A stretch of DNA of 46,632 nucleotides from Solobacterium sp. GTDB lineage: Bacteria; Bacillota_I; Bacilli_A; Erysipelotrichales; Erysipelotrichaceae. Where the stretch lies: assembly GCA_024698805.1 (NCBI GenBank), contig JAILQT010000078.1, positions 1 through 46,632 on the forward strand. The letters run 5' to 3'. Under the pieces are notes generated by a model. It was not told the origin of the DNA. It searched no databases and was given only the letters and a program-made list of their open reading frames with translations. Positions 17,981 to 34,332 of this stretch are shown piece after piece (within the stretch, counting starts at the first letter, position 1; the number at the start of each line of letters is the position of its first letter). The position numbers and the translations under genes are program-made.

Positions 17981-17995
17981 GGAGGATAAAGACAG

Positions 17996-18512: not shown

Positions 18513-18542
18513 TTGCTTTTTGCTGTGCTGTTGGAATATACT
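18513..18542 (+). promoter_or_regulatory. Candidate promoter of the 12-gene metal cluster
   Basis: TTGCTT-18-TATACT. The transcript would start close to the palindrome at 18552, so a repressor bound there would block it. The 5' leader would be about 110 bases. Confidence 0.55.
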
Positions 18543-18551
18543 TTATTGTGA

Positions 18552-18567
18552 GTTAGTTCTAACTAAT
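18552..18567. promoter_or_regulatory. Operator site 1 (GTTAGT-N4-ACTAAT)
   Basis: A 16-bp palindrome with half-sites GTTAGT and ACTAAT around TCTA, just after the promoter. The same half-sites recur at 18634 and 30736. The spacing and symmetry fit a dimeric TetR- or MarR-type repressor, but none is encoded in this window. Confidence 0.65.
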
Positions 18568-18633
18568 ATCACGTGTGCCGATCTTTTGCGCCGGTTCATA
18601 ACGGGGCAGGGGATCCTGTTATTTTAATGCATG

Positions 18634-18649
18634 GTTAGTTTCGACAAAC
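18634..18649. promoter_or_regulatory. Operator site 2 (GTTAGT-N4-ACAAAC)
   Basis: The second copy of the palindrome, ending 2 bases before the AGGAG that serves the first gene. The flanks extend the symmetry to GGTT and AACC. Binding here could also hinder elongation. Confidence 0.6.
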
Positions 18650-18661
18650 CAGGAGATGACG

Positions 18662-20236
18662 ATGTCTGTTAAATATGAAATACTGAAGCGCCTGGTGAAA
18701 GCGGCCGGCATCAAAAAGATATGGCTGTCCAGAAGCACGGAGGAACTGCTGGAGAACCGCAGGAAACAGAATGCAGCGAACCGGATCCCGGATCTGAAAG
18801 ACGATGATTTCCGGATCACGCGTGTCCGCGTGATGGGGCATACCGTGCTGAAGATGATCCATAAACAGCCTTCAGACAGGGCAAACCTGTTCCTGATCGG
18901 CGGCGGGATGATCACTGCGCCGCGGCCGGGTTCCATAAAGAAAGCCCTGCGCTTTGCAAAGGAGACGGGGCTGGACCTCTATGTCCCGTATTACCCGCTC
19001 TGTACGGACTACCCGCTGACAAAGGCGTACGAGATGATCCACGAGACCTATAAGCTGATGCTGGAAGATTATCCTGCAGACCGGATCAGCGTCCTGGGGA
19101 CTTCTTCCGGCGGGAACCTTGCCCTCGGCATGGTGCCGTATATCAATGACGGTCACAGGGATGTCCCGATGCCGTCGCATATCATGGCCATCTCACCGGG
19201 CACCTGCGCTGATACAGACGAAGAGTGGCAGCGGATGCTGGAACTGGATAAAAAAGATGTCGCGATCCCCGCACAGTACATGAGATCAGCCGCGGAGATC
19301 ATGCGGCACGGGGATGACAGTGTCCCGGATTACATGATCTGGCTGCAGCGCGGGGACTTTACCGATTGTCCCCGGGTGACGTTCATCTACGGCACAGACG
19401 AGACGCTGTATGCCTGTGCGCCGTCCTTTGAAGCGGCAATGAAGCGATACGGCGCCGATTACGAGATGATCACCGGTGAAGGCATGTTCCACTGCTATCC
19501 GGTATTCCCGGTCTGCCGGGAGGCTGAAGAGGGCTGGGATATGATGGTCCGGCTTATGAAGGGAACAGACGGTACGGGTGAAACTGTGAACGAAGGAAAC
19601 AGGTTCTGGGACCTTACGGCAGGTGTCTACGACGTCTTTGTCAGGCTGATCAACCGGAAGACGCACGGGGAACTGAAGAAGATCGTTTCCGGTCTGATCG
19701 GCCCGGAGGATGAGGTCCTTGAGTGCGCCTGCGGGACAGGCATGCTGAGTGCGGTGACCGCACCGCGCTGCAGACACCTCACAGCGACGGATCTTTCCCG
19801 GAACATGCTGGAAAAAGCACGGAAAAACTGTGCCGCTTTTCACAATATCACCTATGCGCAGGCGGATATGACAGCACTTCCGTATCCGGACGGCAGTTTC
19901 GATAAAGTCATCGCAGGAAATGTGATCCACCTGCTGGACAGACCGCTGGCAGCACTCGGTGAACTGGACCGGGTGTGCCGTGAAGGCGGGACGCTGATCA
20001 TACCGACATATATGAATAAGGATCGTGCGGGAAAGACCGGTATGTTCGCGGCTGCTGCAGGCAAAGCCGGGGCCGGTTTCAAACGGCAGTTCACTGTCGG
20101 CAGCTACAGGAAGTTTTTCGCTGATGCAGGTTATCCTGACGTAAAGATCATGCTGGCAGAAGGGCGTATCCCCTGTGCTGCGGCCGTGATGAAGAAGGCG
20201 GGCAGGGTCCATATGAAGGGAGGACAGGGTGAATAG
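18662..20236 (+). CDS. Fusion of HSL-type alpha/beta hydrolase and class I SAM methyltransferase
   Basis: The 524-residue protein has two enzymes. Residues about 1-300 form an alpha/beta hydrolase of the hormone-sensitive-lipase/acetyl-hydrolase type: the nucleophile elbow GTSSGG near residue 150, the acidic residue in YGTDE, and a FHCYP histidine near residue 280; the oxyanion HGGG reads LIGGGMI here. Residues about 315-524 are a Ubi/UbiE-like methyltransferase: VLECACGTGMLS (motif I), TATDLSRNMLEKAR, the AQADMTALPYPDGSFD stretch and GNVIHLLDRP. The ATG at 18662 is 6 bases from AGGAG; one at 18656 is too close. First gene of the cluster; the substrate is unknown. Its 3' end overlaps the next gene by 8 bases. 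Confidence 0.83.
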   Translation: MSVKYEILKRLVKAAGIKKIWLSRSTEELLENRRKQNAANRIPDLKDDDFRITRVRVMGHTVLKMIHKQPSDRANLFLIGGGMITAPRPGSIKKALRFAKETGLDLYVPYYPLCTDYPLTKAYEMIHETYKLMLEDYPADRISVLGTSSGGNLALGMVPYINDGHRDVPMPSHIMAISPGTCADTDEEWQRMLELDKKDVAIPAQYMRSAAEIMRHGDDSVPDYMIWLQRGDFTDCPRVTFIYGTDETLYACAPSFEAAMKRYGADYEMITGEGMFHCYPVFPVCREAEEGWDMMVRLMKGTDGTGETVNEGNRFWDLTAGVYDVFVRLINRKTHGELKKIVSGLIGPEDEVLECACGTGMLSAVTAPRCRHLTATDLSRNMLEKARKNCAAFHNITYAQADMTALPYPDGSFDKVIAGNVIHLLDRPLAALGELDRVCREGGTLIIPTYMNKDRAGKTGMFAAAAGKAGAGFKRQFTVGSYRKFFADAGYPDVKIMLAEGRIPCAAAVMKKAGRVHMKGGQGE

Positions 20237-20861
20237 ATACATTCCGGAAAAGATGGCGGCAGCCAGCCGTTACCAGAACTATTTCCCAACGCTTCCGAAA
20301 GAGATACAGGACGATACGTACAGGCGTATGGCAGAACTGCTTGAGGAAGAAAAAGCATACTGCGATAAAGGCAATTATAAACACATGGCGCAGATCATCA
20401 CCTCCATTGCCCTGTATGAGGTCCTGCAGGAACACGGCAGGAGCGAAGCGGAAGCGTACAGGACCGTCTCGGAAGAAATGTGGAAATTCCTTGATCCTTC
20501 AGGCATGCAGAAGCTGGCAAAAAGGAGCTTCTTCCTGCCGCTTATGAAAAAGATCGTGCCGTTTGGTTTCAGAAAAGGTTCTGGCACCGGCTGGCGTTAT
20601 ACATGGCACAGGGATGATCTGAAGGATGTGTTCCGTTTTGAATGCAGGGAATGCATCTATGCGAAGATCCTCGGCAGAAGGGGCCTTATGAAGCTCGGGG
20701 CAATGTGCTGCCATGCGGATATCATCAATTACGGGGACCTGCCGTATACCGACTTTATCCGGACACAGACCCTCTGCCAGGGAGGGAATCTCTGTGATTT
20801 CCGCTTCGTCCGTCATAAGACCGACGCAGGCGACGGCTGGCAGCGCAGCAAAAGCATCTGA
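20229..20861 (+). CDS. L-2-amino-thiazoline-4-carboxylic acid hydrolase family protein (copy 1)
   Basis: A 210-residue protein of the ATC-hydrolase family. The named member opens 2-amino-thiazoline-4-carboxylate to a carbamoyl-cysteine. Family marks near the C-terminus are MCCHADIINYGDL at about residue 159, then a TQTL-x-GGNLCDFRF block with a cysteine-aspartate pair at 189-190. It starts with GTG; GGGAGG at correct spacing supports this. Two more family members lie at 28840 and 29460 in the same unit. Whether any acts on the named substrate is doubtful; many homologs sit in metal or ABC-transporter loci, and a cysteine-ligand role is conceivable. Confidence 0.75.
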   Translation: MNRYIPEKMAAASRYQNYFPTLPKEIQDDTYRRMAELLEEEKAYCDKGNYKHMAQIITSIALYEVLQEHGRSEAEAYRTVSEEMWKFLDPSGMQKLAKRSFFLPLMKKIVPFGFRKGSGTGWRYTWHRDDLKDVFRFECRECIYAKILGRRGLMKLGAMCCHADIINYGDLPYTDFIRTQTLCQGGNLCDFRFVRHKTDAGDGWQRSKSI

Positions 20862-20880
20862 CCGGAAAGGAATCTGAATT

Positions 20881-21696
20881 ATGGAGAAATTTGAAGGTGT
20901 AGCCAATACACTGTTCGTACCGCTCACTGCGAGGATCGCTGTTTCCAAAGAGTTTCCGGAGTATTTCACAGACCAGAAAGCGCTGGAACTGGAACCGTAC
21001 CTGCCGGAGGACGCTGCGAAAGGCTCGTCACAATACAGCAATTTGGCTTCCGTTGCCAGATATTACAACACAGACCGCATGATCGCAGCCTTTGCAAAGG
21101 AACACCGGGAATGCAGCGTGGTCCTGCTCGGTGCAGGGCTGGAGACAGCCTATGACCGCCTGCATGAAAAATACCCGGGTATCCGCTGGTACGCAGCGGA
21201 CCTGCCGGAAGTCATCGAAGCAAGGCGCAGGGTGCTCGGCAGGCGTGAGGGCGAGACGACGATCCCGGGGGATATGTTCCAAATGGAATGGGCAGGACAG
21301 TTAGATGCTTCTGTGCCTGTACTCCTGCTCATATCCGGGGTATTCCAGTATTTTCATGAAGACGAAGTCATTGCGTTCATCCAGAACTGCAGCACTGCAG
21401 TCCCCGGTGCCGAGATGATCTTTGATGCCACCAGCAAAGCCGGACTGCTGTATACCAACTGGTTTATCCGGCGTACGGGCAATACGGATGCCCTGATGTA
21501 CTTCGGCGTCGATGACAGCAAAGGTTTTGCGGATAAATGCGGGGCCGTCCTGCTGGAAGAGAGGACGTTCTTCCCGGATGCACTGCAGATGCTCGGAAAA
21601 AAGCTGAGCCTGGTGACCAGGATTTCCATGAGGACAGCAGAACGGAAAAAACTGGTAAAGATCCTGCATTTGCGGCTTGCGGACAGCAGGGGGTAA
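20881..21696 (+). CDS. Leucine-carboxyl-methyltransferase-family O-methyltransferase
   Basis: 271 residues of the LCM family of class I SAM-dependent methyltransferases. Visible are the N-terminal TLFVPLTARIAVSKEFP motif, the substrate/fold segment FTDQKALEL, VVLLGAGLETAYDRL (SAM loop), WYAADLPEVIEARR and the LLISGVFQYFHEDEV strand-helix. In bacteria the family often methylates polyketide, peptide or other natural-product carboxyl/hydroxyl groups. AAAGGAA lies about 8 bases before the ATG. It is flanked by the ATC-hydrolase-like gene and a membrane protein in the same run. Confidence 0.82.
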   Translation: MEKFEGVANTLFVPLTARIAVSKEFPEYFTDQKALELEPYLPEDAAKGSSQYSNLASVARYYNTDRMIAAFAKEHRECSVVLLGAGLETAYDRLHEKYPGIRWYAADLPEVIEARRRVLGRREGETTIPGDMFQMEWAGQLDASVPVLLLISGVFQYFHEDEVIAFIQNCSTAVPGAEMIFDATSKAGLLYTNWFIRRTGNTDALMYFGVDDSKGFADKCGAVLLEERTFFPDALQMLGKKLSLVTRISMRTAERKKLVKILHLRLADSRG

Positions 21697-21702
21697 AGGA
21701 AG

Positions 21703-22194
21703 ATGCTCACGACTGTCATGCTTGCCATGATCATGATGGCGGGACTGTTCCTGCTGCTCTATGCGGGCGTCGGCCTGATCCGGGAAAAAAAGTTTTTCAC
21801 GTCTGCGCCGCAGGCGGTGCAGGATGCGGTCAGAGAGGGAACGGAGCGTTTCCCGGGCGCCCATGCGCTGGGATGGCTGCTCGCAGCATTTGCTGTCGTG
21901 CTGCTGATCGGCCCGCTGATCTGCGGGGCAATGGACGGGATCGCAGGCGGATTCGGCTTTCTGCAGTTTTTCGGACGTTTCCTGTTCATGCTGTGGGGCC
22001 TGAAGGCCTATGACATCCTGTTTTTTGACTGGTATCTGCTCTGCCGCAGCGGCTTCTTCCCGCATTTCTATCCGGAGGTAAAGCCTTTGCTCGGTCCGCA
22101 TCTGTTCGGGTATAACCGGAACACACATATGTTCCATATCCTTGCCAGTCCTGTCCTCGCGGCAGTGCTTGCATGGATCTGCACATTGCTTTAG
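21703..22194 (+). CDS. Four-helix membrane protein (paralog of the one at 30179)
   Basis: 163 residues with hydrophobic segments at about 1-25, 55-75, 82-105 and 142-163. A pattern after helix 3, LKAYDILFFDWYLL followed 8-10 residues later by FxPH/FYPE and a P-rich stretch, recurs as MNWYDGIVIDRIWV and then F-x-I-P-G-T-E in the protein at 30179, so the two are related. No known enzyme motif is seen. Its place among methyltransferase and hydrolase genes suggests a membrane anchor or a lipid-like substrate. Function unknown. The ATG at 21703 has AAAGGAAG in front. Confidence 0.7.
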   Translation: MLTTVMLAMIMMAGLFLLLYAGVGLIREKKFFTSAPQAVQDAVREGTERFPGAHALGWLLAAFAVVLLIGPLICGAMDGIAGGFGFLQFFGRFLFMLWGLKAYDILFFDWYLLCRSGFFPHFYPEVKPLLGPHLFGYNRNTHMFHILASPVLAAVLAWICTLL

Positions 22195-22221
22195 AAAACA
22201 GTTTTCACAGGAGGACAGGAG

Positions 22222-23019
22222 ATGCAGTTTGATGAAATGGGTGATCTGTCAGGAAAGACACTGATGCTGCTGCCGGGAACAGCCTGCGACTATCAGACGA
22301 ACTTCGCGGCTGTGCTGGACAGGCTGAAAGAGAAGTATCACCTGATCTGTGTCAATTATGACGGCTTTGACGGCAGTGACCTTGTTTTCCCCGGCATGAT
22401 CCCGGTCACGGAAAAGATCGAGAAATACATCCTGGAGAATTACGGCGGTAAGATCGACGGCGCGGTCGGTTCCTCCCTGGGCAGCAGTTTTGTCGGACAG
22501 CTGATCCAGCGCAGAAATGTCCATCTGGACCATGGCATCTTCGGCAGCCCGGACCTCGACCAGAGCGGGAAGCTGAGCGCCTGGCTGCAGTCCAAACTGG
22601 TCGTCCCGCTCCTTGCCGGCTTTGCCGGAAATGAAAAGAAGAGGGCGAAAACGAAAGCAAAGCTGAAAAGCTTTTTTGAGATGGATGATGAGATGGCAGA
22701 AAGGTTTACGGGATGCTTCGCAAAATTCAGCCCGGAATCGATCAGGAATGAATATTACACGGACCTTCTCACATGGCTTGAAGAGGATATCCATGTTGAA
22801 AATACGCAGGTCCATTTCATATATGCTGCGAAGATGGGCAGCAGGTATCTGAAGCGGTATAAGAAGTATTTCCGGGATCCTGATATCCGCGAATTCAATA
22901 TGCAGCATGAGCAGTGGCTGTTCGGCGGTGAGCAGTATACCGTGCCGGTGCTGGACGCCATCGATGAATTTATGGGAATGACCGCCTCGGAAAGGACAGA
23001 ATGTTTGACAAACGACTGA
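22222..23019 (+). CDS. Alpha/beta hydrolase
   Basis: A 265-residue single-domain hydrolase. The nucleophile elbow is GSSLGS at about residue 84, with strand sequence before it (KIDGAVG) and an LLPGTA oxyanion region near residue 17. A lid-like basic helix (NEKKRAKTKAKLKSF) follows at about 140. A candidate histidine is in QHEQWLFGG near residue 230. No export signal. The substrate cannot be told. It overlaps the next ABC transporter gene by 19 bases, so the two are translationally linked. Confidence 0.78.
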   Translation: MQFDEMGDLSGKTLMLLPGTACDYQTNFAAVLDRLKEKYHLICVNYDGFDGSDLVFPGMIPVTEKIEKYILENYGGKIDGAVGSSLGSSFVGQLIQRRNVHLDHGIFGSPDLDQSGKLSAWLQSKLVVPLLAGFAGNEKKRAKTKAKLKSFFEMDDEMAERFTGCFAKFSPESIRNEYYTDLLTWLEEDIHVENTQVHFIYAAKMGSRYLKRYKKYFRDPDIREFNMQHEQWLFGGEQYTVPVLDAIDEFMGMTASERTECLTND

Positions 23020-24737
23020 TACAGATGTGTCCGGAAAGCAGGAAGTATATCGCCGGAAACATTATCCTGCAGTTTTTTGAACTGTGCTTCAATGCAGTCA
23101 TGATCGTCATGATCGCCTTTTCGGTGCAGAAGCTTTATGAAAGGGTATGGGGTCTGCAGGACCTTATCCTCCCGTTCGCAGTGATCGCCGTGACGGTATT
23201 CCTGCGCTTTTTTACGACAAAATATGCAGTCCGAATGAGTTATCTCGCTTCCCGAACAGTAAAGCGTGTGATGCGTGAAAGGATATATGCCAAACTCCTC
23301 AGACTCGGTAACGCATACCGCGGATACGTATCGACGGCGGAACTGGTGCAGGAATCCGTGGAGGGCGTGGATCAGCTGGAGAGCTATTTCGGACAGTATG
23401 TCCCGCAGTTCTTCTATGCCTTCATGGCGCCTGCCGCCCTGTTCTTTCTCTTCGGGTTCGGCGGCTCATGGAAAGTCGCTTCCGTACTGCTGGTCTGTGT
23501 GCCCCTGATCCCGGCAGCGATCGTCATGGTGCAGAAGATCGCAAAAAAGATATTGGGAAAATACTGGGGACAGTACACGCAGCTCGGCAGTACGTTCCTG
23601 GAAAACCTGCAGGGCATGACGACCCTGAAGATCTATCAGGCAGATGAATACAAAAACGCGGAGATGAACCGGGAATCCGAACACTTCCGCAAAGTGACGA
23701 TGGCTGTACTGACGATGCAGCTGAATTCCGTTACGGTCATGGACCTCGTTGCTTACGGCGGCACGGCGCTGGGTATCCTGCTGGCAGTGAATGCATTTGC
23801 GGCAGGGGAGCTGGGTCTTGCAAACGTGGTCTTTATGATCCTTCTTTCCGCGGACTTCTTCCTTCCCATGCGCCGTCTCGGCAGTTATTTCCATGTGGCG
23901 ATGAACGGGATGGCAGCCAGCGACAAGATCTTCCGTTTCCTCTCTGAGGATGAACCGGCAGAGAAAACAGGAACTGCTGACGGCGGCGATATCGAACTGC
24001 GTGACCTGCATTTTTCCTATGAAAAGGGACGGGAGATCCTGCACGGCATCAGCCTGCTGATCCCGGAAGGGGGCTTTACCGGGATCGTCGGCGAGTCCGG
24101 AAGCGGAAAATCCACCATCGCTGCGCTGATCACCGGACGCATTACAGCAGGGGACGGCATGATCACGATCGGCGGGAAAGATATAAATACGATCCGTGAG
24201 GACAGCCTGATGAGATACATCACGTATGTCGGTCCGGGACCGGTCTTTTTCAAAGGGACAGTACGGGAGAACCTGCTGTACGCTGCCCCGTATGCATCTG
24301 ACGAAAAGCTCCGGGAAGTCCTTGCCGGCTGTGCCCTGGCTGATTTCCTCAAAAGTGAAAACGGGCTGGATACTGTCCTGACAGAAAATGCAGGAAACCT
24401 GTCAGGGGGTCAGAAGCAGCGTCTTGCGCTTGCACGCGCGATCCTGCACGACACCCCTGTATATATCTTTGATGAAGCTTCAAGCAATATCGATATCGAG
24501 AGCGAGGAAGCGATACTGGGACAGATCAGGAGTATCGCCGCAGAAAAGACGGTGATCATGATCACGCACAGGCTCGCCAATGTCAGGGATGCCGGACGGA
24601 TCTGTGTAATGGAGAAAGGCACTGTCTGTGAGAACGGTACGCATGACGAACTGCTTTCAGCTGACGGTGTATATGCCCGTCTGTGGAAGACACAGTCCGC
24701 GCTGGAGAACTACGGGAAGGAGGCTTTGAACGGATGA
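23001..24737 (+). CDS. ABC transporter, fused permease-ATPase, CydD-like (half 1 of pair A)
   Basis: 578 residues. A six-helix type IV membrane domain (residues about 1-320) is followed by an ATPase domain: Walker A GESGSGKST near 364, signature LSGGQKQR near 467, Walker B VYIFDEASSNID and ITHRL. The Q-loop reads YVGPGPVFF, without the usual glutamine. The membrane domain has the SVTVMDLVAYGG block found in CydD-like exporters. With the next gene it should form a heterodimer; the two overlap by 4 bases. CydDC itself moves glutathione, cysteine or haem, so a thiol or haem/metal-ligand substrate is a reasonable guess here. Confidence 0.88.
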   Translation: MFDKRLIQMCPESRKYIAGNIILQFFELCFNAVMIVMIAFSVQKLYERVWGLQDLILPFAVIAVTVFLRFFTTKYAVRMSYLASRTVKRVMRERIYAKLLRLGNAYRGYVSTAELVQESVEGVDQLESYFGQYVPQFFYAFMAPAALFFLFGFGGSWKVASVLLVCVPLIPAAIVMVQKIAKKILGKYWGQYTQLGSTFLENLQGMTTLKIYQADEYKNAEMNRESEHFRKVTMAVLTMQLNSVTVMDLVAYGGTALGILLAVNAFAAGELGLANVVFMILLSADFFLPMRRLGSYFHVAMNGMAASDKIFRFLSEDEPAEKTGTADGGDIELRDLHFSYEKGREILHGISLLIPEGGFTGIVGESGSGKSTIAALITGRITAGDGMITIGGKDINTIREDSLMRYITYVGPGPVFFKGTVRENLLYAAPYASDEKLREVLAGCALADFLKSENGLDTVLTENAGNLSGGQKQRLALARAILHDTPVYIFDEASSNIDIESEEAILGQIRSIAAEKTVIMITHRLANVRDAGRICVMEKGTVCENGTHDELLSADGVYARLWKTQSALENYGKEALNG

Positions 24738-26392
24738 AAAAACTAAGCAAAGCCGCAGTCCTTTTCCGGATGATAAAGCTCGTAAAGCCCCTTGCCGGAC
24801 CCATGGTCATGGCGGTACTGATGGGTACTGCCGGATTCCTCTGCGCGCAGTTTATCCCGATCCTCGGCGGCTATGCCGTGCTATACGGCCTGCATGCGGA
24901 TATACCGCTTTCCATCAGGACTGTACAGATACTGCTGATCCTTCTTGCAGTGCTTCGCACGGTCCTGAAGCTGGGGGAACAGCGTACGAATCATTATATC
25001 GCCTTTACCCTGCTTGCGATCATCCGTGACAGGGTATTCGCCGCACTGCGCAGACTCTGTCCGACAAAACTGGAAGGACATGACAAGGGCGACCTGATCT
25101 CGCTTATCACATCGGATGTAGAGCTCCTGGAAGTCTTCTACGCACATACGGTCTCACCCGTCTGCATTGCATTCCTTACCGAACTGGCGATGGCGGTCTT
25201 CATCGGTTCCTTCCACTGGAGCCTCGGCCTGCTGGCACTGGCTGCGTATGCCTGCATCGGCATCGCGCTGCCGCTGATCATCTCAGGGCGCAGCGGGGAT
25301 CTGGGTGACGAACTGCGTGCAGATAACGGGGAACTGGCAGCCTGCATGCTTGAGAACATCCGCGGCCTGGATGAAACGGTACAGTACGCTTCAGGCAGGG
25401 TGCGCCTGGACCGCATGACGGAAATGACGATGAAGCTCTCCGCAAAACAAAGCAGGCTGAACTGCCTGACCGGTGTCAATCTTGCGCTCACGAATACGCT
25501 GATCCTCATCTTCGATGCAGCGATGCTTGCCATGGCAGCAGCACTTTACAGTCACGGCGTCATCGGTATCGACGGTTTCCTGATCCCGCTGATCGCACTG
25601 ATGTCATCATTCGGCCCTGTAACAGCCCTTGCGAACCTGGGCACTGCGCTCCAGGCGACTGCCGCATCCGGTGCACGTGTGCTGGCAGTCATTGATGAAA
25701 AACCGGAGACAGAAGATGTGCGGGGGAAGGAAAAGGTCGCTTTTTCCGGCGCGTCGCTGGAAAATGTCAGTTTTTCCTACGGCAGCGGCACGGTGCTGGA
25801 CGATGTCTCGCTGCAGTTTCCCGCAAACAGGATCACCGGCATCGTCGGCAGGAGCGGATGCGGGAAATCGACCATGCTGAAACTGCTGATGCGCTTCTGG
25901 CATGTAAGCAGGGGAAGGGCGGCTGTTTCCGGCGTGAGCGTAGAGGATATCAATACATCGGACCTGCGGGACATGGAGAGTTACATGACGCAGGAAACAC
26001 AGCTCTTCAAAGATACGGTCGCAGGGAATATACGCATAGCAAAACCCGGTGCTTCACAGGAAGAGATCGAAGAAGCCTGCAGGAAAGCATCGATCCATGA
26101 TTTCATCCTGACACTGCCGAAGGGCTATGAAACAGAAGTCGGCGAACTCGGGGAAACACTGTCGGGAGGTGAACGGCAGCGCATCGGCCTTGCCCGCGCC
26201 TTCCTGCACGGTGTCCCGTTCCTGCTTCTCGATGAGCCGACCAGTAATCTGGACAGCCTGAATGAGGCGGTGATACTCCGTTCCCTGAAAGAGGAAGCCA
26301 GGGACAGGACGGTCCTGCTCGTTTCGCACCGCAGATCCACTGTACGCATCGCTGATGAAGTGATCGCGATGGAAGAAGGACGAATATCCTGA
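24734..26392 (+). CDS. ABC transporter, fused permease-ATPase, CydC-like (half 2 of pair A)
   Basis: 552 residues with a membrane domain (about 1-310) and an ATPase domain: Walker A GRSGCGKST near 372, Q-loop MTQETQLF, signature LSGGERQR, Walker B FLLLDEPTSNLD and SHRR. This half has a canonical Q-loop and catalytic glutamate replaced by DEPTSN, whereas its partner has DEASSN; both keep the glutamate. The ATG overlaps the previous stop and is 51 bases inside a longer in-frame reading. It is followed by 91 bases containing two palindromes. Confidence 0.88.
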   Translation: MKKLSKAAVLFRMIKLVKPLAGPMVMAVLMGTAGFLCAQFIPILGGYAVLYGLHADIPLSIRTVQILLILLAVLRTVLKLGEQRTNHYIAFTLLAIIRDRVFAALRRLCPTKLEGHDKGDLISLITSDVELLEVFYAHTVSPVCIAFLTELAMAVFIGSFHWSLGLLALAAYACIGIALPLIISGRSGDLGDELRADNGELAACMLENIRGLDETVQYASGRVRLDRMTEMTMKLSAKQSRLNCLTGVNLALTNTLILIFDAAMLAMAAALYSHGVIGIDGFLIPLIALMSSFGPVTALANLGTALQATAASGARVLAVIDEKPETEDVRGKEKVAFSGASLENVSFSYGSGTVLDDVSLQFPANRITGIVGRSGCGKSTMLKLLMRFWHVSRGRAAVSGVSVEDINTSDLRDMESYMTQETQLFKDTVAGNIRIAKPGASQEEIEEACRKASIHDFILTLPKGYETEVGELGETLSGGERQRIGLARAFLHGVPFLLLDEPTSNLDSLNEAVILRSLKEEARDRTVLLVSHRRSTVRIADEVIAMEEGRIS

Positions 26393-26409
26393 TCATCAGG
26401 GGGAACGCA

Positions 26410-26468: not shown

Positions 26469-26483
26469 AAGGAGGACAGAAAA

Positions 26484-26747
26484 ATGAGTTTAACAGGAAG
26501 AATCGCAATTTTTATCGGAGGGACACTGTTCGGGTCTGCCGGATTTAAACTGCTTGGCAGCAAAGACGCTCGCAAGGTCTATACACAGGTAACCGCAGCT
26601 GCACTGCGCTGCAAGGACCAGGTGATGCACGATGTCGAAACGATACAGGAGAACTGTTCGGATATCCTTGCCGATGCAAAGCAGATCAACGCAGACCGTA
26701 AAAAGGCAGCGGAAGAGGAATACATCGAAGAAAGCGCCCAGGCATGA
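26484..26747 (+). CDS. Small hydrophobic/helical protein, DUF6110-like, ferrosome-associated type
   Basis: Only 87 residues. A single hydrophobic segment at about 6-24 (IAIFIGGTLFGSAGFKLL) is glycine-rich with GxxxG-like spacing, good for helix packing in a membrane. A long charged amphipathic helix follows (QVMHDVETIQENCSDILADAKQ) and ends acidic. This architecture fits the small protein that accompanies P1B-6 ATPases in ferrosome loci (called FezB in Clostridioides difficile; naming differs between species). A strong AAGGAGG RBS is 9 bases upstream, stronger than most in this cluster, fitting a structural protein. It overlaps the ATPase start by 4 bases. Confidence 0.7.
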   Translation: MSLTGRIAIFIGGTLFGSAGFKLLGSKDARKVYTQVTAAALRCKDQVMHDVETIQENCSDILADAKQINADRKKAAEEEYIEESAQA

Positions 26748-28834
26748 GATTCCGGATTATGCATGAGCTGCCCGGCAGGATGCGGCTGAGGGCAGATACC
26801 CGGTCGATGAGCCTTGAAGAAGCGGACCTGCTGGAGGCATGGCTCCGGTCGCAGCCGGGCGTAGATACTGTACAGGTCCATGAAAGGACATGCGGTGTGA
26901 TCGTGCTCTATCACGGGGAACGTGAAGCGCTCTGCAGGGATCTTTCCGTTTTCTCCTATGAAAAGGCACAGAAGGAGCTTGACCCTCAGGTACGCAGCAG
27001 CCGGCAGATGAACCGGGCCTATAAGGAAAAACTTGTCTTTCTTGTGGCAAGACACTGTGTAAAGCGTCTTTTCCTGCCGGATCCCATTCGCAGGATCGTT
27101 ACGGTCTGTACAACGATACCGCGTTTCCTGCATGCGGCGAAAGTGCTCGCTTCCGGCAGGCTGACAGTCGACGTTCTTGACGGCATTGCGATCGGTGCCT
27201 CGCTGCTGACCGGGGATCACCGGACTGCAGGATCTGTCCATTTCCTGCTGAACGTCGGGGAGACGCTGGAAGAATGGACGCATAAAAAGTCAGTGGAAGA
27301 TCTTGCCAGAAGCATGTCCCTGCAGGTCGACCGGGTCTGGAAACTGGATGAGGACGGAAAGCAGTCCGACGTACCGCTCAGCAGCATAGTGCCGGGCGAC
27401 AGGATCATCGTGCATACGGGGAATGTCCTGCCGCTTGACGGGATCCTTGAAGAAGGCGATGTCATGCTGAACCAGGCGTCGCTGACCGGTGAGGGTGTCC
27501 CCGTGGCGAAACGCCCGGGATCGGCTGTTTATGCCGGATCTGTCGTGGAAGAAGGCAACTGCGTGATCCGTGTAACGAAGACGTCGGGTGAGAACAGGTA
27601 CGACAGGATCGTGCGCATGATCGAAGAATCCGAACGGCTGAAATCCGCTGTAGAAAACAGGGCAGGCAGCCTCGCTGACAGGCTGGTGCCGTGGTGTCTG
27701 GGCGGGAGCCTGCTGACATGGCTGCTGACACAGAATGTGACCAGGGCAGTATCGGTGCTGATGGTCGACTTTTCGTGTGCGCTGAAGCTTTCGATGCCCC
27801 TGAGCGTATTATCCGCGATGCGGGAAGCAGGGCGCCGCAAGATCATCGTCAAAGGCGGCAGGTTCATGGAAATGATCAGTGCCGCGGATACCGTGATCTT
27901 TGATAAAACAGGAACGCTTACAAAGGCATGCCCCACAGTTGCGGAAGTTGTGCCGTTTAACGGCATGGATAAGCGGGAGATGCTGCGGGTCGCTGCCTGT
28001 CTGGAAGAACACTTCCCGCACTCCGTTGCGAACGCAGTCGTGAAAGCAGCGAAGGATCAGGGCCTTGATCACACCGAGATGCACGGCAAAGTCGAATATG
28101 TCGTTGCGCACGGCATCAAAACAAGGATCTCCGGCCAGCCGGCTGTCATCGGCAGCGCGCATTTCATTTTTGAGGACGAAGGCGTGCAGATCCTTCCGGA
28201 AGACAAAGAAAGATTTGAAGCACTGCCGCAGACTGTCTCCTGGCTGTACATGGGTATCGGCGGCATCCTTTCTGCGGCGATCGGCATATCCGACCCGCTG
28301 CGGCCGGAAGCGTGCCGTGCAGTCGCTGCACTGCATGAGGCAGGGATCGGAAAAGCGGTCATGCTGACAGGTGATAACCGCAGGGCAGCAGGAGCCATCG
28401 CTGCACAGCTCGGCATCGATGAATACCGGGCGGAGGTCCTGCCGGAAGATAAAGCAGCCTATATCAAAGCGGAACATGAGGCCGGCAGGACCGTCATCAT
28501 GATCGGCGACGGCATCAATGACACGCCCGCACTCTCGCTGGCGGATGTCGGCATTGCCGTAGGCAGCGGGGCTGTGATCGCGCGGGAAGTTGCCGATGTG
28601 ACCATTGATGCGGAAGACCTGCTGGAACTTGCCTGGCTGAAGCGCCTGAGCGACGCGCTGATGCGCCGTATCGGACGCAATTACCGTTTTGTCATGGGAT
28701 TCAACGGCACGCTGATCCTGCTCGGTGCCTTCGGGCTCCTTGCCCCGGCAGCGGGTGCGCTGCTGCACAACACGTCGACAATTCTTCTGAGCATGGACTG
28801 CCTTACGGACCTGCTCAGCGCAGAAGGGGGATGA
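26744..28834 (+). CDS. P1B-type (P1B-6-like) metal-transporting ATPase of ferrosome type
   Basis: 696 residues. The catalytic parts are complete: actuator SLTGEGVPV, DKTGTLT with phosphorylated Asp387, and a GDGINDTPALSLADVG hinge. Two features set it apart from copper or zinc exporters. The N-terminus has no CxxC metal-binding domain but an arginine-rich start (MRFRIMHELPGRMRLRAD; R2, R4, H7, G11, R12, R14, R16). The membrane metal site reads FSCALKLSMP (residues 343-352) instead of CPC. Both are seen in the P1B-6 group that loads iron into ferrosomes in Desulfovibrio, Shewanella and C. difficile. C-terminal helices contain LLHNTST. Iron as the substrate is inferred from family. Confidence 0.85.
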   Translation: MRFRIMHELPGRMRLRADTRSMSLEEADLLEAWLRSQPGVDTVQVHERTCGVIVLYHGEREALCRDLSVFSYEKAQKELDPQVRSSRQMNRAYKEKLVFLVARHCVKRLFLPDPIRRIVTVCTTIPRFLHAAKVLASGRLTVDVLDGIAIGASLLTGDHRTAGSVHFLLNVGETLEEWTHKKSVEDLARSMSLQVDRVWKLDEDGKQSDVPLSSIVPGDRIIVHTGNVLPLDGILEEGDVMLNQASLTGEGVPVAKRPGSAVYAGSVVEEGNCVIRVTKTSGENRYDRIVRMIEESERLKSAVENRAGSLADRLVPWCLGGSLLTWLLTQNVTRAVSVLMVDFSCALKLSMPLSVLSAMREAGRRKIIVKGGRFMEMISAADTVIFDKTGTLTKACPTVAEVVPFNGMDKREMLRVAACLEEHFPHSVANAVVKAAKDQGLDHTEMHGKVEYVVAHGIKTRISGQPAVIGSAHFIFEDEGVQILPEDKERFEALPQTVSWLYMGIGGILSAAIGISDPLRPEACRAVAALHEAGIGKAVMLTGDNRRAAGAIAAQLGIDEYRAEVLPEDKAAYIKAEHEAGRTVIMIGDGINDTPALSLADVGIAVGSGAVIAREVADVTIDAEDLLELAWLKRLSDALMRRIGRNYRFVMGFNGTLILLGAFGLLAPAAGALLHNTSTILLSMDCLTDLLSAEGG

Positions 28835-28839
28835 AACAC

Positions 28840-29463
28840 ATGAAACTCGGAATGATGGGAAGGCTGTTCCCGGTGCTTCTTTCAAAAACAGTCTTTGAAT
28901 ATACAGCCGGGGCACTGCCGGATATGGACATCCGTCAGTTCAGAAAGAAAATGATGAAAGAATACAAAGCCATGGTTGCCAGGACACCTTCCGTCGGCAC
29001 GATGAAGGAGAACATGTTTGCCCCGGTGATGTATCTGGCCTGTTTCGGTTTCTCCTATTACAAAGCGGATCCGGAACGGATCTCGATGGATGTCTTCGAC
29101 GGCATGATCGATGCCATATGCACATCGGATATCATGAAGCGGTTCTATAAGGGAAAGAACTGTTTTGATCCGAAAGAGATCGACAAATATGCCCGCGGTT
29201 CCCAAAGGTCAAAGAAAAGGGAGTACCCGATGGACTGGGTATTTGATTTTTCCTGTGATCTCTCCGTCCCGGAATACTTTGTGACACACCGGGAATGCGG
29301 CGTCTGCAAGATCGCAAAGCAGGAGGGGCTCATGTTCCTGATGCCGCATATGTGTGTAATGGATTATCCGACGATCGAGTATAAAGGGGGGAAACTGATC
29401 CGTACAAAGACGCTCGGTGCCGGGGATGACTGCTGTGATTTCCATGTGGTGAAGAAGACATGA
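28840..29463 (+). CDS. ATC-hydrolase-family protein (copy 2)
   Basis: 207 residues. The C-terminal half carries the same sparse pattern as the protein at 20229: a PHMCVMDYPTIEY block and TKTLGAGDDCCDFHVV, i.e. M-C-x-x-D and then C-D-F. An additional ECGVCKIA (CxxC) precedes them. The start at 28840 is chosen because AAGGGGG is 9 bases upstream; the alternative ATG at 28831 touches the RBS. The gene follows the ATPase by 5 bases. Enzymatic role unknown; cysteine-rich sites could hold metal. Confidence 0.68.
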   Translation: MKLGMMGRLFPVLLSKTVFEYTAGALPDMDIRQFRKKMMKEYKAMVARTPSVGTMKENMFAPVMYLACFGFSYYKADPERISMDVFDGMIDAICTSDIMKRFYKGKNCFDPKEIDKYARGSQRSKKREYPMDWVFDFSCDLSVPEYFVTHRECGVCKIAKQEGLMFLMPHMCVMDYPTIEYKGGKLIRTKTLGAGDDCCDFHVVKKT

Positions 29464-30182
29464 AAGAGAAAGACCTGCCGTTTGACCGCTCGAAACATGC
29501 GGTGTATTCGAAAAACGCAAAACGGTGCGTTCAGCGGCTCCTGCGCTGCTGCTATGACAGAAAAGAAGCGGAAGAGATGTGGGAAAAGGTACAGCTGCAG
29601 TACTGTGAATACCTTAAAGATGAACCGGCGCTGAAGGACCTGAAGATCACGGCCAGCATCTACGACCCGATCCTGGTCTTTGCATGGCATGCGGCCGTTC
29701 CCGAAAAGCCTGCGCGCGAATTCGTACAGCAGGAGATCTGCAGGTCCTTTTTCGGCAGTTTTGAGCTGCTGGGGAAGGTGTTCGACCTGAACAGGAAGCC
29801 GGACATGCGTCTGGCTGCCATGATCTTCCGAAAGGCGAATGATATCCGTATAAAGGAGATCCGGCGCTTCCCGGCTTCTTTCCGCATGGGATATTACGCC
29901 TTTGACAGACAGAACAATGCTGTCCGCTACAGTTTTACGCAGTGTCCGAACGCGGAATTCGCAAAACGGCACAACATGGAAGACGTGCTTCCGCTGATGT
30001 GCAACTGCGACCATCTTGCCATGCAGAAGATCCATGCCTGCCTGATCCGCGAGGGGACCTGCGTGACTGCGGACCGGTGCGATTACTGCATCGTCGGGGA
30101 CAGGGATCCTATCGCGGCAGGGTATGAACTCAAAGAGGCGGAGAACGGTCTTCTGCTCAGTGTCAGGAAGGAGCCGGTATGA
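29460..30182 (+). CDS. ATC-hydrolase-family protein (copy 3)
   Basis: 240 residues related to the two copies above by the MCNCDHLAMQKIH block (about 180) and the later TADRCDYCIVGDRD block. Cysteines are abundant (C-x-C, C-x-x-C arrangement in RCDYC). The N-terminal half has a helical, charged character and a CVQRLLRCCYD segment. ATGA overlap with the gene before and after shows tight coupling. Substrate unknown. Three divergent copies in one operon argue for distinct roles rather than simple dosage. Confidence 0.65.
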   Translation: MKEKDLPFDRSKHAVYSKNAKRCVQRLLRCCYDRKEAEEMWEKVQLQYCEYLKDEPALKDLKITASIYDPILVFAWHAAVPEKPAREFVQQEICRSFFGSFELLGKVFDLNRKPDMRLAAMIFRKANDIRIKEIRRFPASFRMGYYAFDRQNNAVRYSFTQCPNAEFAKRHNMEDVLPLMCNCDHLAMQKIHACLIREGTCVTADRCDYCIVGDRDPIAAGYELKEAENGLLLSVRKEPV

Positions 30183-30655
30183 TCGTTTTGCAGCTGGTGC
30201 TGTACTGTGCCCTGTTTACCCTGATGGTAAAGGCTGCAGTCGGCAATAATGCTCTGAACGGTCTGTATTTCTATCCGAAACCCGTACAGGAAAGGGTCTT
30301 TGAACTCGGACTGACAGACCGCGGGACCGTTTTGCGGAAGCGGAAGGGGTTTATGATCCCGTTCTTTATCGTCATGGGCACAGCCCTGGTAATGATCATC
30401 CGGGTATGGAACGGGATCCGGACATTCAGGGAAGCGTATCTGCAGGCACTGCTGTTCCTGGAAGTCATGAACTGGTATGACGGGATCGTGATCGACCGTA
30501 TCTGGGTCGGACACAGGCGTTTCTGGATCATCCCGGGTACGGAGGATATCCCGTTTGTGCAGACCTGGCCGCAGGTGCTGGAGAAGAGGGGGATCCTGAC
30601 CCTGGTCTGGCTGGCCGGTGCCGCCCTCATTGCCGGGATCGCTGTACTGCTGTGA
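30179..30655 (+). CDS. Four-helix membrane protein (paralog of the one at 21703)
   Basis: 158 residues with hydrophobic segments at about 1-20, 60-80, 88-105 and 140-158. Shared marks with the protein at 21703 are FYPKPVQERVFELG (compare FTSAPQAVQDAVREG) and MNWYDGIVIDRIWVG followed by F-W-I-I-P-G. It is the last gene of the first unit and overlaps its predecessor by 4 bases. Function unknown; recurrence at both ends of the operon suggests two linked modules. Confidence 0.65.
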   Translation: MIVLQLVLYCALFTLMVKAAVGNNALNGLYFYPKPVQERVFELGLTDRGTVLRKRKGFMIPFFIVMGTALVMIIRVWNGIRTFREAYLQALLFLEVMNWYDGIVIDRIWVGHRRFWIIPGTEDIPFVQTWPQVLEKRGILTLVWLAGAALIAGIAVLL

Positions 30656-30735
30656 AGCAGGACGGTCATATATATACAGAAAAAGGATTTCAATACAGGC
30701 TTCGCCGTCCGGCGGGGCCATAATCCAACTGGCGA

Positions 30736-30751
30736 GTTAACTTTTACTAAC
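30736..30751. promoter_or_regulatory. Operator site 3 (GTTAAC-N4-ACTAAC)
   Basis: The third copy of the cluster palindrome, on the other orientation GTTAGT-AAAA-GTTAAC, 39 bases before the next ABC gene. It marks a second promoter; CATAAT at 30719-30724 could be its -10, but I find no good -35. The 134-base gap also holds CGCCG-TC-CGGCG without a T-run. Confidence 0.62.
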
Positions 30752-30789
30752 TGCCGGTGAAAAACAAAATGAACACAAGGAGGTTTTTG

Positions 30790-32589
30790 ATGAAAGAAAA
30801 GAAACAAAGCGATCTCGCTGTCCTGCTTGGATACGCAGGCAGCTACAAAGTGCTGACCTTCCTGGGAATGGGCCTGTCAGCTGCTGCGATGGTGCTGGGG
30901 ATGCTGCCGTATATCTGCATCTGGCTGACTGCGAGGGACCTGATCGCCGCCGCGCCGGACTGGACGAAAGCGGCAGGGATCGCGCGTTACGGATGGATGG
31001 CATTCGCGTTTGCCGTGGCCGGTATCCTCGTATATTTCTCAGCCCTGATGTGTACGCATCTGGCTGCCTTCAGGACGGCAGCGAATATACGCAAAGCCGG
31101 AATGGCGCATCTGATGAAAACACCCCTGGGATTTTTCGATTCCAATGCTTCAGGCCTTCTGCGTAACCGCCTGGACGGGGCGGCATCGGAAACGGAGACC
31201 ATGCTGGCGCATAACCTGGCGGATATCACCGGGGCTGCAGCGATGTTCATTGCCATGCTGGTCCTTATGTTTGTTTTTGACTGGCGTATGGGGGCAGCGT
31301 GCCTGCTGGCGGCAGCTGTTTCTGTCTGTGCGATGGGCTATATGATGGGCGGTAAAAATGCGAAGCTCATGCAGGAATACCAGGCGGCGCAGGATGTCAT
31401 GAGCAAGGCCGGCACCGAATACGTCCGCGGCATCCCGGTCGTAAAGGTGTTCCAGCAGACTGTCTATTCCTTCAGGGCGTTCAAACAGGCGATCGAGGAC
31501 TACAGCGCCAAGGCGGAGCACTTCCAGTCCGATGTATGCAAAGTACCGCAGTCTGTCAACCTTACGTTTACAGAAGGAGCCTTCATCTTCCTGGTACCGG
31601 CTGTTCTGTTCCTCGCACCATCCGCGCTGCGCTCAGGCGGTCTTGCAGGCTTTGTCACGAACTTTGCTTTTTATGCCGTATTCTCTGCCATTATCTCCAC
31701 GGCCCTGGCAAGGATCATGTTCGCTGCCAGCGGCACGATGATGGCAGGCACGGCGCTGAAGCGGATCGACGAGGTAATGAGCGCACCGGTGCTCCCTGTC
31801 ACGGATGATCCGAAGCAGCCCGCAGACAACAGCATTGAATTCAAAGATGTATGTTTTACCTATGACGGGGCAAATATGCCTGCCCTGGACCATGTCTCTT
31901 TCCGGGCGGAACCCGGACAGACGGTTGCGCTCGTCGGTCCTTCCGGGGGAGGGAAAACAACTGCAGCGAGCCTGATCCCGCGTTTCTGGGATGTCAGTTC
32001 CGGCAGTGTCATAGTCGGCGGCGTTGACGTAAGGGATACCGATCCCCATGTACTGATGGACCAGGTGGCGTTCGTGTTCCAGAACAACAGGCTGTTCAAA
32101 GCCAGCATCCTGGAAAATGTACGCGCATCCCGCCCCGCCGCTTCACGCGATGAAGTACAGGCTGCCCTTACGGCGGCACAGTGCGATGACATCCTGGAGA
32201 AGCTTCCGGACGGTATGGATACCGTGATCGGCACGGAGGGCACATACCTTTCGGGAGGTGAACAGCAGCGTGTCGCGCTGGCACGCGCGATCCTGAAGGA
32301 TGCGCCGATCGCTGTGCTTGACGAAGCGACGGCTTTCGCGGATCCGGAAAACGAAGCCAGGATCCAGAAAGCTTTTTCAGCACTGACAAAAGACCGTACG
32401 GTCATTATGATCGCACACCGTCTGTCTACTGTCGTCGGTGCGGACAGGATATTCGTGCTGGATAACGGGAAGATCGCGGAAGCGGGGACGCACATTGAAC
32501 TGGTGCAGGCGGGAGGTCTGTATGCCCGCATGTGGAAAGACTATAATGAGGCCGCAAAATGGCGTATCTCAGCAGAGGAGGTGCAGTAA
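30790..32589 (+). CDS. ABC transporter, fused permease-ATPase, YbtP/IrtA-like (half 1 of pair B)
   Basis: 599 residues: six-helix membrane domain (about 1-330) and ATPase domain. Walker A is GPSGGGKTT near 383, the signature is LSGGEQQR and Walker B continues as DEATAFADPENE. The last motif and the GGGKTT P-loop are characteristic of the YbtPQ/IrtAB branch, whose members import siderophore-iron complexes although they have the exporter fold. AAGGAGG is 6 bases before the ATG; an earlier in-frame ATG at 30757 lacks an RBS. It is directly followed by its partner. Confidence 0.88.
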   Translation: MKEKKQSDLAVLLGYAGSYKVLTFLGMGLSAAAMVLGMLPYICIWLTARDLIAAAPDWTKAAGIARYGWMAFAFAVAGILVYFSALMCTHLAAFRTAANIRKAGMAHLMKTPLGFFDSNASGLLRNRLDGAASETETMLAHNLADITGAAAMFIAMLVLMFVFDWRMGAACLLAAAVSVCAMGYMMGGKNAKLMQEYQAAQDVMSKAGTEYVRGIPVVKVFQQTVYSFRAFKQAIEDYSAKAEHFQSDVCKVPQSVNLTFTEGAFIFLVPAVLFLAPSALRSGGLAGFVTNFAFYAVFSAIISTALARIMFAASGTMMAGTALKRIDEVMSAPVLPVTDDPKQPADNSIEFKDVCFTYDGANMPALDHVSFRAEPGQTVALVGPSGGGKTTAASLIPRFWDVSSGSVIVGGVDVRDTDPHVLMDQVAFVFQNNRLFKASILENVRASRPAASRDEVQAALTAAQCDDILEKLPDGMDTVIGTEGTYLSGGEQQRVALARAILKDAPIAVLDEATAFADPENEARIQKAFSALTKDRTVIMIAHRLSTVVGADRIFVLDNGKIAEAGTHIELVQAGGLYARMWKDYNEAAKWRISAEEVQ

Positions 32590-34332
32590 ATGTTTGGGAA
32601 AGAGTTTCAGCACAGATATGCCCTTACCGACCAGGGTATCCGGAATGTAAAGCGGGGGACATTCTGGACGGTCATCGTGAACCTTGTCGTGATGGGGGGA
32701 ATGGGCATCCTGTATTACCTGATGACACGGTTCATGGATACCCTGGTCGCCGATGCGCCGCTTCCGGGACCCGGTGTTTTCATTATCCTGATCCTGTGTT
32801 TTGTGGTCCTCTCCATGATCACGCATATCCAGCAGTATCAGGCGACATACGGTCTGGTGTACAGCGAAGTGAAAGCGGTCCGCATCGGCATCGCGGAACG
32901 CCTGCGGAAACTGCCCCTGGGTTATTTCGGCAAACGCGACCTGGCAGACCTGACCGAGACCATCATGGGTGATGTGAACCGTCTTGAACACGTGTGGTCC
33001 CATTGTCTCGGATACCTTTACGGATCCTATATCTCGACAGCGGTCATTGCCGTCATGCTGTTCATGATGAACTGGAAGATGGCCCTGGCCTGCCTGTGGG
33101 GTGTCCCGGTCGCATTCATCCTTCTCTTCGGAAGCAGGAAACTGACGAAAAAGAATTCCGAGATCACAAAAGCTGCAGGGATCCGGGTGTCTGACGGTAT
33201 CCAGGAAACACTGGAGAACATACGTGAGATCCGCGCCCTGAACCGGGAAGAAGACTTCCTGGAAGACATCGGGTCCAGGATCGACCACCATGAAAAGATG
33301 ATGATCAAAGGGGAACTGTTTACAGGGATATTCGTCAACGGTGCCAGCGTCATCATGCGTCTCGGCGTTGCGACTACGATCCTGACCGGGACGAACCTGA
33401 TCCTTTCGGGAAAGATCGACTTTATGCTGCTGTTCATGTTCCTGCTGGTGATCACCCGTGTCTATGCGCCTTTTGACCAGGCCCTGGCGCTGATCGCGGA
33501 AATGTTCATGTCACAGGTATCAGCAGCCCGCCTGAATGAGCTCTATGACACAGAAACTGCGGAAGGCACTGACCGGTTTGAGCCGGCTGGCCATGATATC
33601 AAATTTGAGAACGTATACTTTTCCTACGATGACGAAGAAGTGCTGCACGGGGTGAGCTTTACGGCGAAAGAGGGTGAAGTAACAGCGCTTGTCGGACCTT
33701 CCGGATCAGGCAAGAGCACATGTGCCAGACTGGCAGCGCGGCTTTGGGATATCGATCAGGGGACGATCCGTGTCGGCGGCACGGATATTTCCTCCGTCGA
33801 CCCGGAAGTACTGCTTACAGACTATTCCATGGTCTTCCAGGATGTCGTCCTGTTCGACGATACCGTGATGGAGAACATCCGTCTCGGAAAGCACGGCGCG
33901 TCCGATGAGGAAGTCCTTGCAGCCGCAAAAGCAGCGAACTGCGACGAGTTCGCAGAGAAACTGCCGCAGGGATATCATACGAATATCGGTGAAAACGGTG
34001 CCAGGCTCTCCGGCGGCGAACGCCAGCGGATCTCGATTGCACGCGCACTTCTGAAAAATGCGCCGGTCGTCCTGCTGGATGAGGCGACTGCATCCCTCGA
34101 CGTGGAGAACGAGACCAAAGTGCAGTCTGCGCTCTCGCGTCTGCTTTCCGGAAAAACGGTCCTTGTGATCGCACACCGTATGCGTACGGTCGAAGCGGCA
34201 GATAAGATCGTGGTGCTTTCTGAAGGCAGGGTCGCGGAAGAGGGCAGTCCTGCAGAGCTCCTCAGCAATAAAGACAGTATTTTCCGGCATATGATGCAGC
34301 TGCAGAATTCCAGCGCCGGCTGGAGCATCTGA
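32590..34332 (+). CDS. ABC transporter, fused permease-ATPase, YbtQ/IrtB-like (half 2 of pair B)
   Basis: 580 residues. The membrane domain (about 1-315) contains LGYFGKRDLADLTETIMGDV, typical coupling-helix surroundings of this branch. The ATPase domain has Walker A GPSGSGKST, Q-loop VFQDVVLFDD, LSGGERQR, LLDEATASLDVE and AHRM. The ATG abuts the previous stop, and AGAGGAGG within the end of that gene is the RBS. Both nucleotide sites look competent. Together with the P-type ATPase upstream and the shared operator, iron-ligand or metallophore transport is the best guess. Confidence 0.88.
   Translation: MFGKEFQHRYALTDQGIRNVKRGTFWTVIVNLVVMGGMGILYYLMTRFMDTLVADAPLPGPGVFIILILCFVVLSMITHIQQYQATYGLVYSEVKAVRIGIAERLRKLPLGYFGKRDLADLTETIMGDVNRLEHVWSHCLGYLYGSYISTAVIAVMLFMMNWKMALACLWGVPVAFILLFGSRKLTKKNSEITKAAGIRVSDGIQETLENIREIRALNREEDFLEDIGSRIDHHEKMMIKGELFTGIFVNGASVIMRLGVATTILTGTNLILSGKIDFMLLFMFLLVITRVYAPFDQALALIAEMFMSQVSAARLNELYDTETAEGTDRFEPAGHDIKFENVYFSYDDEEVLHGVSFTAKEGEVTALVGPSGSGKSTCARLAARLWDIDQGTIRVGGTDISSVDPEVLLTDYSMVFQDVVLFDDTVMENIRLGKHGASDEEVLAAAKAANCDEFAEKLPQGYHTNIGENGARLSGGERQRISIARALLKNAPVVLLDEATASLDVENETKVQSALSRLLSGKTVLVIAHRMRTVEAADKIVVLSEGRVAEEGSPAELLSNKDSIFRHMMQLQNSSAGWSI

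Follow-up and report, generated by a model that had tools for sequence, protein, structure and literature searches.

The stretch analysed here (hereafter the window) comprises 46,632 nucleotides of Solobacterium sp. (order Erysipelotrichales; contig JAILQT010000078.1, positions 1 to 46,632) from a 2.8-Mb genome assembled into 146 contigs, and it carries a run of fourteen genes around a small membrane protein of the DUF6110 family and a P1B-6-type ATPase, a pair resembling that of ferrosome loci. All fourteen open reading frames, named g1-g14, were present on the forward strand between 18656 and 34332 (Table 1). The junctions from g1 to g14 measured -8, +19, +6, +27, -19, -4, +91, -4, -4, -4, -4, +134 and 0 bp, with 11 of the 13 between -19 and +27 bp, the exceptions being the 91 bp before g8 and the 134 bp before g13; 4-bp overlaps chain g8 through g12. 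Start codons were taken at ATG 24734 for g7 and ATG 30790 for g13, each with a good ribosome-binding site. A sequence-only reading of this DNA had described fourteen tightly spaced same-strand genes in two units, and this description held. The two transcription units match the position of two sets of a palindrome (18548-18649 and 30736-30751). Pfam families were assigned in a scan of 15 window proteins at a hit threshold of 1e-3, which is the scope of all Pfam results given below for the window.

The DUF6110 protein and its ATPase partner

The 87-residue product of g8 had been described as coupled to the ATPase, and its gene overlaps g9 by 4 bp. DUF6110 was its sole Pfam hit; its homology was examined through this profile (Table 1). 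The ATPase g9 has the arginine-rich N-terminus (HELPGRMR) and the FSC motif of the earlier description, the latter as F343-S344-C345 in transmembrane segment 4 (TM4), together with H675-N676 in TM6. An arginine-rich ATPase N-terminus is a FezB feature, and H7, R12 and R14 of the g9 motif were invariant in a 10-sequence alignment. We compared 115 P1B ATPases, 68 with DUF6110 in their locus (the window included) and 47 others. All 68 carried [FY][SCT]C together with HN. Among the 47 there were 31 CPC/CPH/CPG pumps, none with DUF6110 in the fetched locus, and nine ATPases with [FY]SC and HN and no DUF6110 detected. On a FastTree tree of the ATPases the DUF6110 label changed 5 times, compared to a mean of 36.9 changes with shuffled labels.

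Because of DUF6110, the P1B-6 motifs and the tree placement, g8-g9 is by its predicted features a pair of the ferrosome-linked kind, as had been proposed, a placement made by features and not by direct comparison with proven FezA and FezB. DUF6110 is presumably equivalent to FezA. Genes for DUF6110 proteins, described as relatives of mycobacterial PacL, typically accompany those for P1B6 ATPases (PMC9374683, PMC13043812), while fezA and fezB of C. difficile are reported to be required for ferrosome formation and to be repressed by Fur (PMC12574912). A small membrane protein likewise stands beside a P1B-type ATPase in the fezXAB locus of C. difficile and in the ferrosome locus of D. magneticus. 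FezC, a DUF4405-like cytochrome, is a component in D. magneticus but is not needed by every such system, the C. difficile operon being given as fezXAB (PMC10979944, PMC11533511); no DUF4405 or FezC-like protein was among the Pfam hits of the window. Unlike these systems, the core of the window is embedded in ATP-binding cassette (ABC) transporter, methyltransferase, hydrolase and ATC-hydrolase genes.

The identification of g9 as a copper or zinc exporter was rejected on its non-CPC motif (FSC with HN) and its grouping, by tree and motif, with DUF6110-linked ATPases; clustering with such exporters was looked for and did not occur. Separately, in two core loci from other phyla (L134 and L138; L numbers are our labels for loci) the ATPase is followed by a third gene whose product has a GRLRLR or GRLRFR stretch at its N-terminus.

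A palindrome shared with feo genes

The palindrome GTTAGN6CTAAC (hereafter the box) was searched with up to 1 mismatch, and the reversed pattern and/or shuffled sequence served as control. Four matches with 1 mismatch each were found in the window, two of them overlapping and all at the promoters of the two units, compared to a mean of 0.44 in shuffled windows (0/100 shuffles with four or more). Two copies also lie in the promoter of the feoA-feoA-feoB genes of the same genome (feoA genes recognised by eye), and this promoter box common to the locus and feo supports the link to iron that had been suspected. Across the genus the box was present in 26 of 40 feoB upstream regions and the reversed pattern in one; by FeoB type, it was found in 20/22 GNPN and 6/17 GNQN regions, with one region untyped.

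The same pattern was found at relatives of other genes of the locus. Around 30 high-scoring PF14196 (ATC-hydrolase-like) matches, one per genome and fetched without regard to box presence, 21 box sites were found in 16 loci, compared to a shuffle mean of 0.83 (largest 4) and five sites for the reversed pattern. Upstream of DUF6110 (350 bp upstream plus 60 bp into the frame) the box was present at 16 of the 40 loci from the order, which had already been inspected when the pattern was first found, and at 9 of 31 loci elsewhere, which had not. Shuffle means for the two sets were 0.5 and 0.4, no shuffle going beyond 3 and 4, respectively; the reversed pattern gave none in either. Five distinct g13 orthologues were encountered in the order (L040, L055, L073, L074, L232), each with a box just upstream, and a more distant g13 paralogue in L074 also had one there. 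Outside the order, none of three g13-type genes had a box within 350 bp; one of the three belongs to a run starting with feoA and feoB, with a perfect box before feoA.

The half-site layout of the box resembles what we take to be that of DtxR-family regulators, and a DtxR-type regulator is our guess; the box is presumably unlike the Fur box. Judging by the box, which both units share with feoAAB and which is enriched at the feoB, DUF6110 and ATC-hydrolase genes of relatives, the accessory genes appear to belong to a feo (iron) regulon. Elsewhere in the host genome, a box with 1 mismatch stands directly before an alpha/beta-hydrolase-like gene (L106, contig C127) and another directly before a lipoprotein/ECF-S-like (energy-coupling factor S) pair (L100, contig C66), both recognised by eye and candidates for the same regulon.

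Table 1. Features of the locus and its neighbours in the window.
Feature	Position	Strand	Basis
996-residue protein, repeat-rich surface type (Cna-B/SpaA)	14391-17381		by eye
Ribosomal protein genes	17546-18403		by eye
Box in two registers that overlap (1 mismatch in each), unit 1 promoter	18548-18567		pattern match
Box, further copy, 1 mismatch, just 5' of g1	18634-18649		pattern match
g1, HSL-type (hormone-sensitive lipase) esterase and class I methyltransferase fusion	18656-20236	+	Pfam
g2, PF14196 ATC-hydrolase-like	20229-20861	+	Pfam 8.5e-16, 59.5 bits
g3, LCM-type methyltransferase	20881-21696	+	Pfam 7e-10
g4, small membrane protein, aligns with g12	21703-22194	+	alignment, 18% identity
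g5, alpha/beta hydrolase	22222-23019	+	family profile vs 4rpc, 2.3e-6
g6, exporter-fold ABC half-transporter	23001-24737	+	Pfam ABC membrane and ATPase fusion
g7, exporter-fold ABC half-transporter, partner of g6	24734-26392	+	Pfam ABC membrane and ATPase fusion
g8, DUF6110 small membrane protein, 87 residues, FezA/PacL-like	26484-26747	+	Pfam 4.3e-27, 94.5 bits, cut-off 26
g9, P1B-6-type ATPase (HELPGRMR N-terminus, FSC, HN)	26744-28834	+	Pfam, motifs, tree
g10, PF14196	28831-29463	+	Pfam 1.8e-21, 77.9 bits
g11, PF14196	29460-30182	+	Pfam 4.2e-8, 34.6 bits
g12, small helical membrane protein, aligns with g4	30179-30655	+	alignment, structure model
Box, 1 mismatch, unit 2 promoter, 38 bp 5' of ATG 30790	30736-30751		pattern match
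g13, ABC half-transporter, 599 residues	30790-32589	+	nearest PDB half-transporter YbtP, then IrtA
g14, ABC half-transporter	32590-34332	+	nearest PDB half-transporter YbtQ, TM288 close behind
Lipoprotein-like secreted esterase	34435-35853	+	EstA_Ig_like and a PHA-depolymerase (polyhydroxyalkanoate) model, both matched weakly

Accessory genes and their recurrence

Pfam agreed with the earlier assignment of two ABC pairs (g6-g7 and g13-g14) and three ATC-hydrolase-like genes (g2, g10, g11), and likewise with the methyltransferase, ATPase and DUF6110 labels and with that of one hydrolase. Among half-transporters in the PDB, the best matches of g13 were YbtP (303.7 bits), IrtA (281 bits) and MsbA (257 bits), and those of g14 were YbtQ (264.8 bits) and TM288 (260.6 bits). 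The pair resembles the YbtPQ and IrtAB siderophore importers in its exporter fold, its top half-transporter hits (YbtP and YbtQ) and its iron-linked promoter. The extra domain that we take IrtA to carry presumably has no room in g13. FeoB is encoded directly upstream of DUF6110 and the ATPase in L047 and L057. In Lachnospiraceae bacterium NK4A179 (L129, 264-16430) one forward-strand run, with a perfect box before feoA, encodes a TetR regulator, FeoA, FeoB (by eye), a g13-g14-type ABC pair, a Trep_Strep-type ECF S component, ECF-like genes (by eye), DUF6110, a P1B ATPase, a second TetR regulator and a second ABC pair. In L055 and L063 the g7 orthologue beside the core is split or fragmentary, through natural decay or assembly error.

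The enzymes announced as two methyltransferases and two hydrolases were found as functions but occupy three genes, since g1 is a fusion; its halves are separate genes in L036, L037, L038, L040 and L041. The hydrolase g5 had no Pfam hit and shows, by eye, the elbow motif GSSLGSS. No Pfam hit was obtained for the small membrane proteins g4 and g12, and the structure model of g12 is helical with modest confidence (predicted local distance difference test, pLDDT, 73). All three ATC-hydrolase-like proteins scored above the PF14196 cut-off of 28.1 bits, and three Cys were invariant across 16 sequences. The structure model of g10 (pLDDT 92) gave a weak H-NOX/TRAPP/phenol-sensor-like fold match. These proteins are like known ATC-hydrolase, V4R and H-NOX-like proteins in their curated profile matches and weak fold match, and the window differs in having several divergent paralogues near an iron-type box. 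Elsewhere in the host genome (L217, contig C94, 11804-17040), ATC-hydrolase-like and small membrane-protein genes form another cluster, which has no DUF6110 and has a perfect box about 2 kb past its last recognised gene. A YgbA_NO family protein is encoded in L119 (19540-19893; Pfam 1.7e-48) and similar ones were seen by eye in L036, L055 and L063, a recurrence in core loci that may point to a connection with nitric oxide stress.

In the order, 47 of 315 genomes had a DUF6110 match (42 above the cut-off); in an evenly drawn sample of the family, 4 of 145 did (3 above the cut-off). For gene neighbourhoods we used 120 loci, 40 being regions around DUF6110 and 80 being loci of ATPase relatives in named genomes (the best 80 of at least 588 stretches), and scored seven accessory families (ATC, small membrane protein, LCM, methyltransferase, esterase, alpha/beta hydrolase and ketopantoate-reductase-like). 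DUF6110 was present in 72 loci, with at least two accessory families in 11 and at least one in 14; none of the families was found in the 48 loci without DUF6110, which came mostly from other phyla. Nine of the 39 DUF6110 stretches of at least 15 kb had at least two families; the remaining 33 stretches were shorter. The 11 reach also into Clostridia and include two Lachnospiraceae loci (L119, L124) and one locus each from metagenome-assembled genomes of Oscillospiraceae (L131) and Ruminococcus (L135); perfect box copies were present in all four. The accessory-set label changed state at least 5 times on the ATPase tree, from which L135 was left out as its ATPase is in two pieces. Within the genus at least 17 of 154 PF14196 matches lay within 20 kb of DUF6110 compared to 2.3 expected; counted by genome, this was so in 6 of 36 DUF6110 genomes compared to 2.2 expected (P ~0.02, treating PF14196 matches as independent). 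The association of core and accessory genes is real, but found in a minority of loci.

Outside the fourteen genes, the left neighbours are ribosomal protein genes. The lipoprotein-like esterase gene starts 102 bp past g14, has no box and could be unrelated. Further upstream lies a gene for a repeat-rich surface-type protein.

A proposed iron role and its alternatives

Three computed results, the P1B-6/DUF6110 core, the shared box and the recurrence of modules, underlie the reading that we prefer, with evenly balanced confidence: an iron-starvation island coupling a ferrosome-type core with functions that take up and process an organic iron ligand. Low iron would lift a metal-sensing repressor, presumed as to both identity and sign, from the boxes, switching on feoAAB and both units. 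The YbtPQ/IrtAB-like pair g13-g14 would then import an organic iron complex, import being the presumed direction. The hydrolases, methyltransferases, ATC-hydrolase-like and small membrane proteins may bind the ligand, modify it or open it, and dispose of it, whatever its presumed chemistry, and g6-g7 may perhaps take part in ligand handling or disposal. Finally, g9, assembled by g8, would move freed cytosolic iron into membrane-bound stores, the putative organelles being ferrosomes. A bolder version is doubtful: a new Bacillota iron-ligand pathway under the feo-type box, in which uptake, destruction of the ligand and storage in the organelle would be parts of a single regulated route. In it the H-NOX/V4R-fold ATC-hydrolase-like paralogues, the small membrane proteins and the enzymes would process a complex imported by an exporter-fold ABC pair, with a thiazoline-type siderophore or a tetrapyrrole as candidates, and pass its iron to ferrosomes.

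Several results weigh against the preferred reading. The box showed no genome-wide excess (13 sites compared to 17 for the reversed control), and because of this the case for it rests on site placement. It was missing from 11 of the 17 GNQN-type feoB regions and from just upstream of 24 of the 40 DUF6110 loci of the order. Accessory genes are close by in six of those 24 (L036, L037, L038, L040, L041, L048), and the window DUF6110 likewise has no box of its own. Fewer than two accessory families were found in 61 of the 72 DUF6110 loci, many of these stretches being short, and the families also occur apart from the core; the host genome itself has nine PF14196 matches, three of them in the g1-g14 locus, and one DUF6110 match. 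The scores of g14 for YbtQ and TM288 are nearly equal, and ABC homology does not fix substrate or transport direction.

The strongest rival, possible although in our judgement clearly the less probable reading, is a mosaic in which the core, the ABC importers and the ATC/methyltransferase/hydrolase modules are independent, come under a common regulator and are brought together as neighbours by recombination, without forming one pathway. It would account for the shuffled gene order and differing subsets among relatives, for the accessory families found elsewhere with the same box near them, and for the 61 DUF6110 loci without the accessory set. The genus-level excess of PF14196 near DUF6110, the repeated changes of the association on the ATPase tree and the 4-bp overlaps joining g8-g12 argue for a closer connection. 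The earlier proposal of fourteen genes as one set is therefore only partly borne out: modules recur, and two or more accessory families were present in 11 of the 72 DUF6110 loci, but order is shuffled and the accessory families also stand off the core. In view of these two observations, there is a better case for the genes being members of a regulon than for one fixed 14-gene machine. The interpretation offered by the sequence-only reading is overall partly supported, with the thiol ligand that it suggested still conjectural.

It is unlikely that the enzymes make an iron ligand, with one ABC pair exporting it, the other re-importing it and the core storing the iron. Two ABC pairs, the fused esterase-methyltransferase g1 and a ketopantoate-reductase-like gene in relatives would suit such metallophore synthesis and recycling. 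Enzyme subsets, however, vary strongly among relatives, and the Pfam hits of the window included no scaffold-forming enzyme (non-ribosomal peptide synthetase, NRPS; polyketide synthase, PKS; NRPS-independent siderophore synthetase, NIS; or opine dehydrogenase); in having no siderophore synthesis genes recognised by Pfam the window also differs from the YbtPQ and IrtAB systems.

More improbable still is a metal-efflux platform in which g8-g9 would pump out a toxic metal and the remaining genes would serve detoxification. The mycobacterial PacL/CtpC effluxosome is alike in its pairing with a P-type ATPase, and DUF6110 is related to the DUF1490 of PacL (PMC9374683), such proteins being proposed platform organisers (PMC9374683, PMC13043812). 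CtpC, however, has CPC as its TM4 motif (PMC9374683) where g9 has FSC, g8 gave no DUF1490 hit and has no Cys or His in its C-terminal tail, and a control box common with feo iron import argues for expression at low iron. That the accessory enzymes tailor the lipid of a ferrosome membrane is very improbable, since H-NOX and phenol-sensor folds match g10 about as well as its weak top Foldseek match, palmitate-bound TRAPP3/Bet3 (E 1.1e-3), and accessory genes occur without the core, even if an esterase and a methyltransferase could have lipid substrates.

Compared to known ferrosome systems, control joint with iron uptake would be a common feature, exercised here presumably through the box and in C. 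difficile through Fur (PMC12574912). The core itself is already known; its embedding in a feo-box regulon with ABC pairs and an enzyme set is the new part, and was not found in the available parts of the literature searched. The shared GTTAGN6CTAAC palindrome is likewise a new observation.

Gut bacteria are known to have few membrane-bound organelles, ferrosomes being one kind, and to our knowledge there is no settled account of how they are fed with iron. Here one candidate signal ties a ferrosome-type core to ferrous import, to siderophore-importer-like ABC pairs and to a large set of uncharacterised enzymes, in the genus and again in Lachnospiraceae and Oscillospiraceae. This suggests a role in iron for PF14196 proteins and the neighbouring small membrane-protein family. 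It also suggests a joined system that captures, frees and stores iron, and gives a concrete gene list for iron capture and storage.

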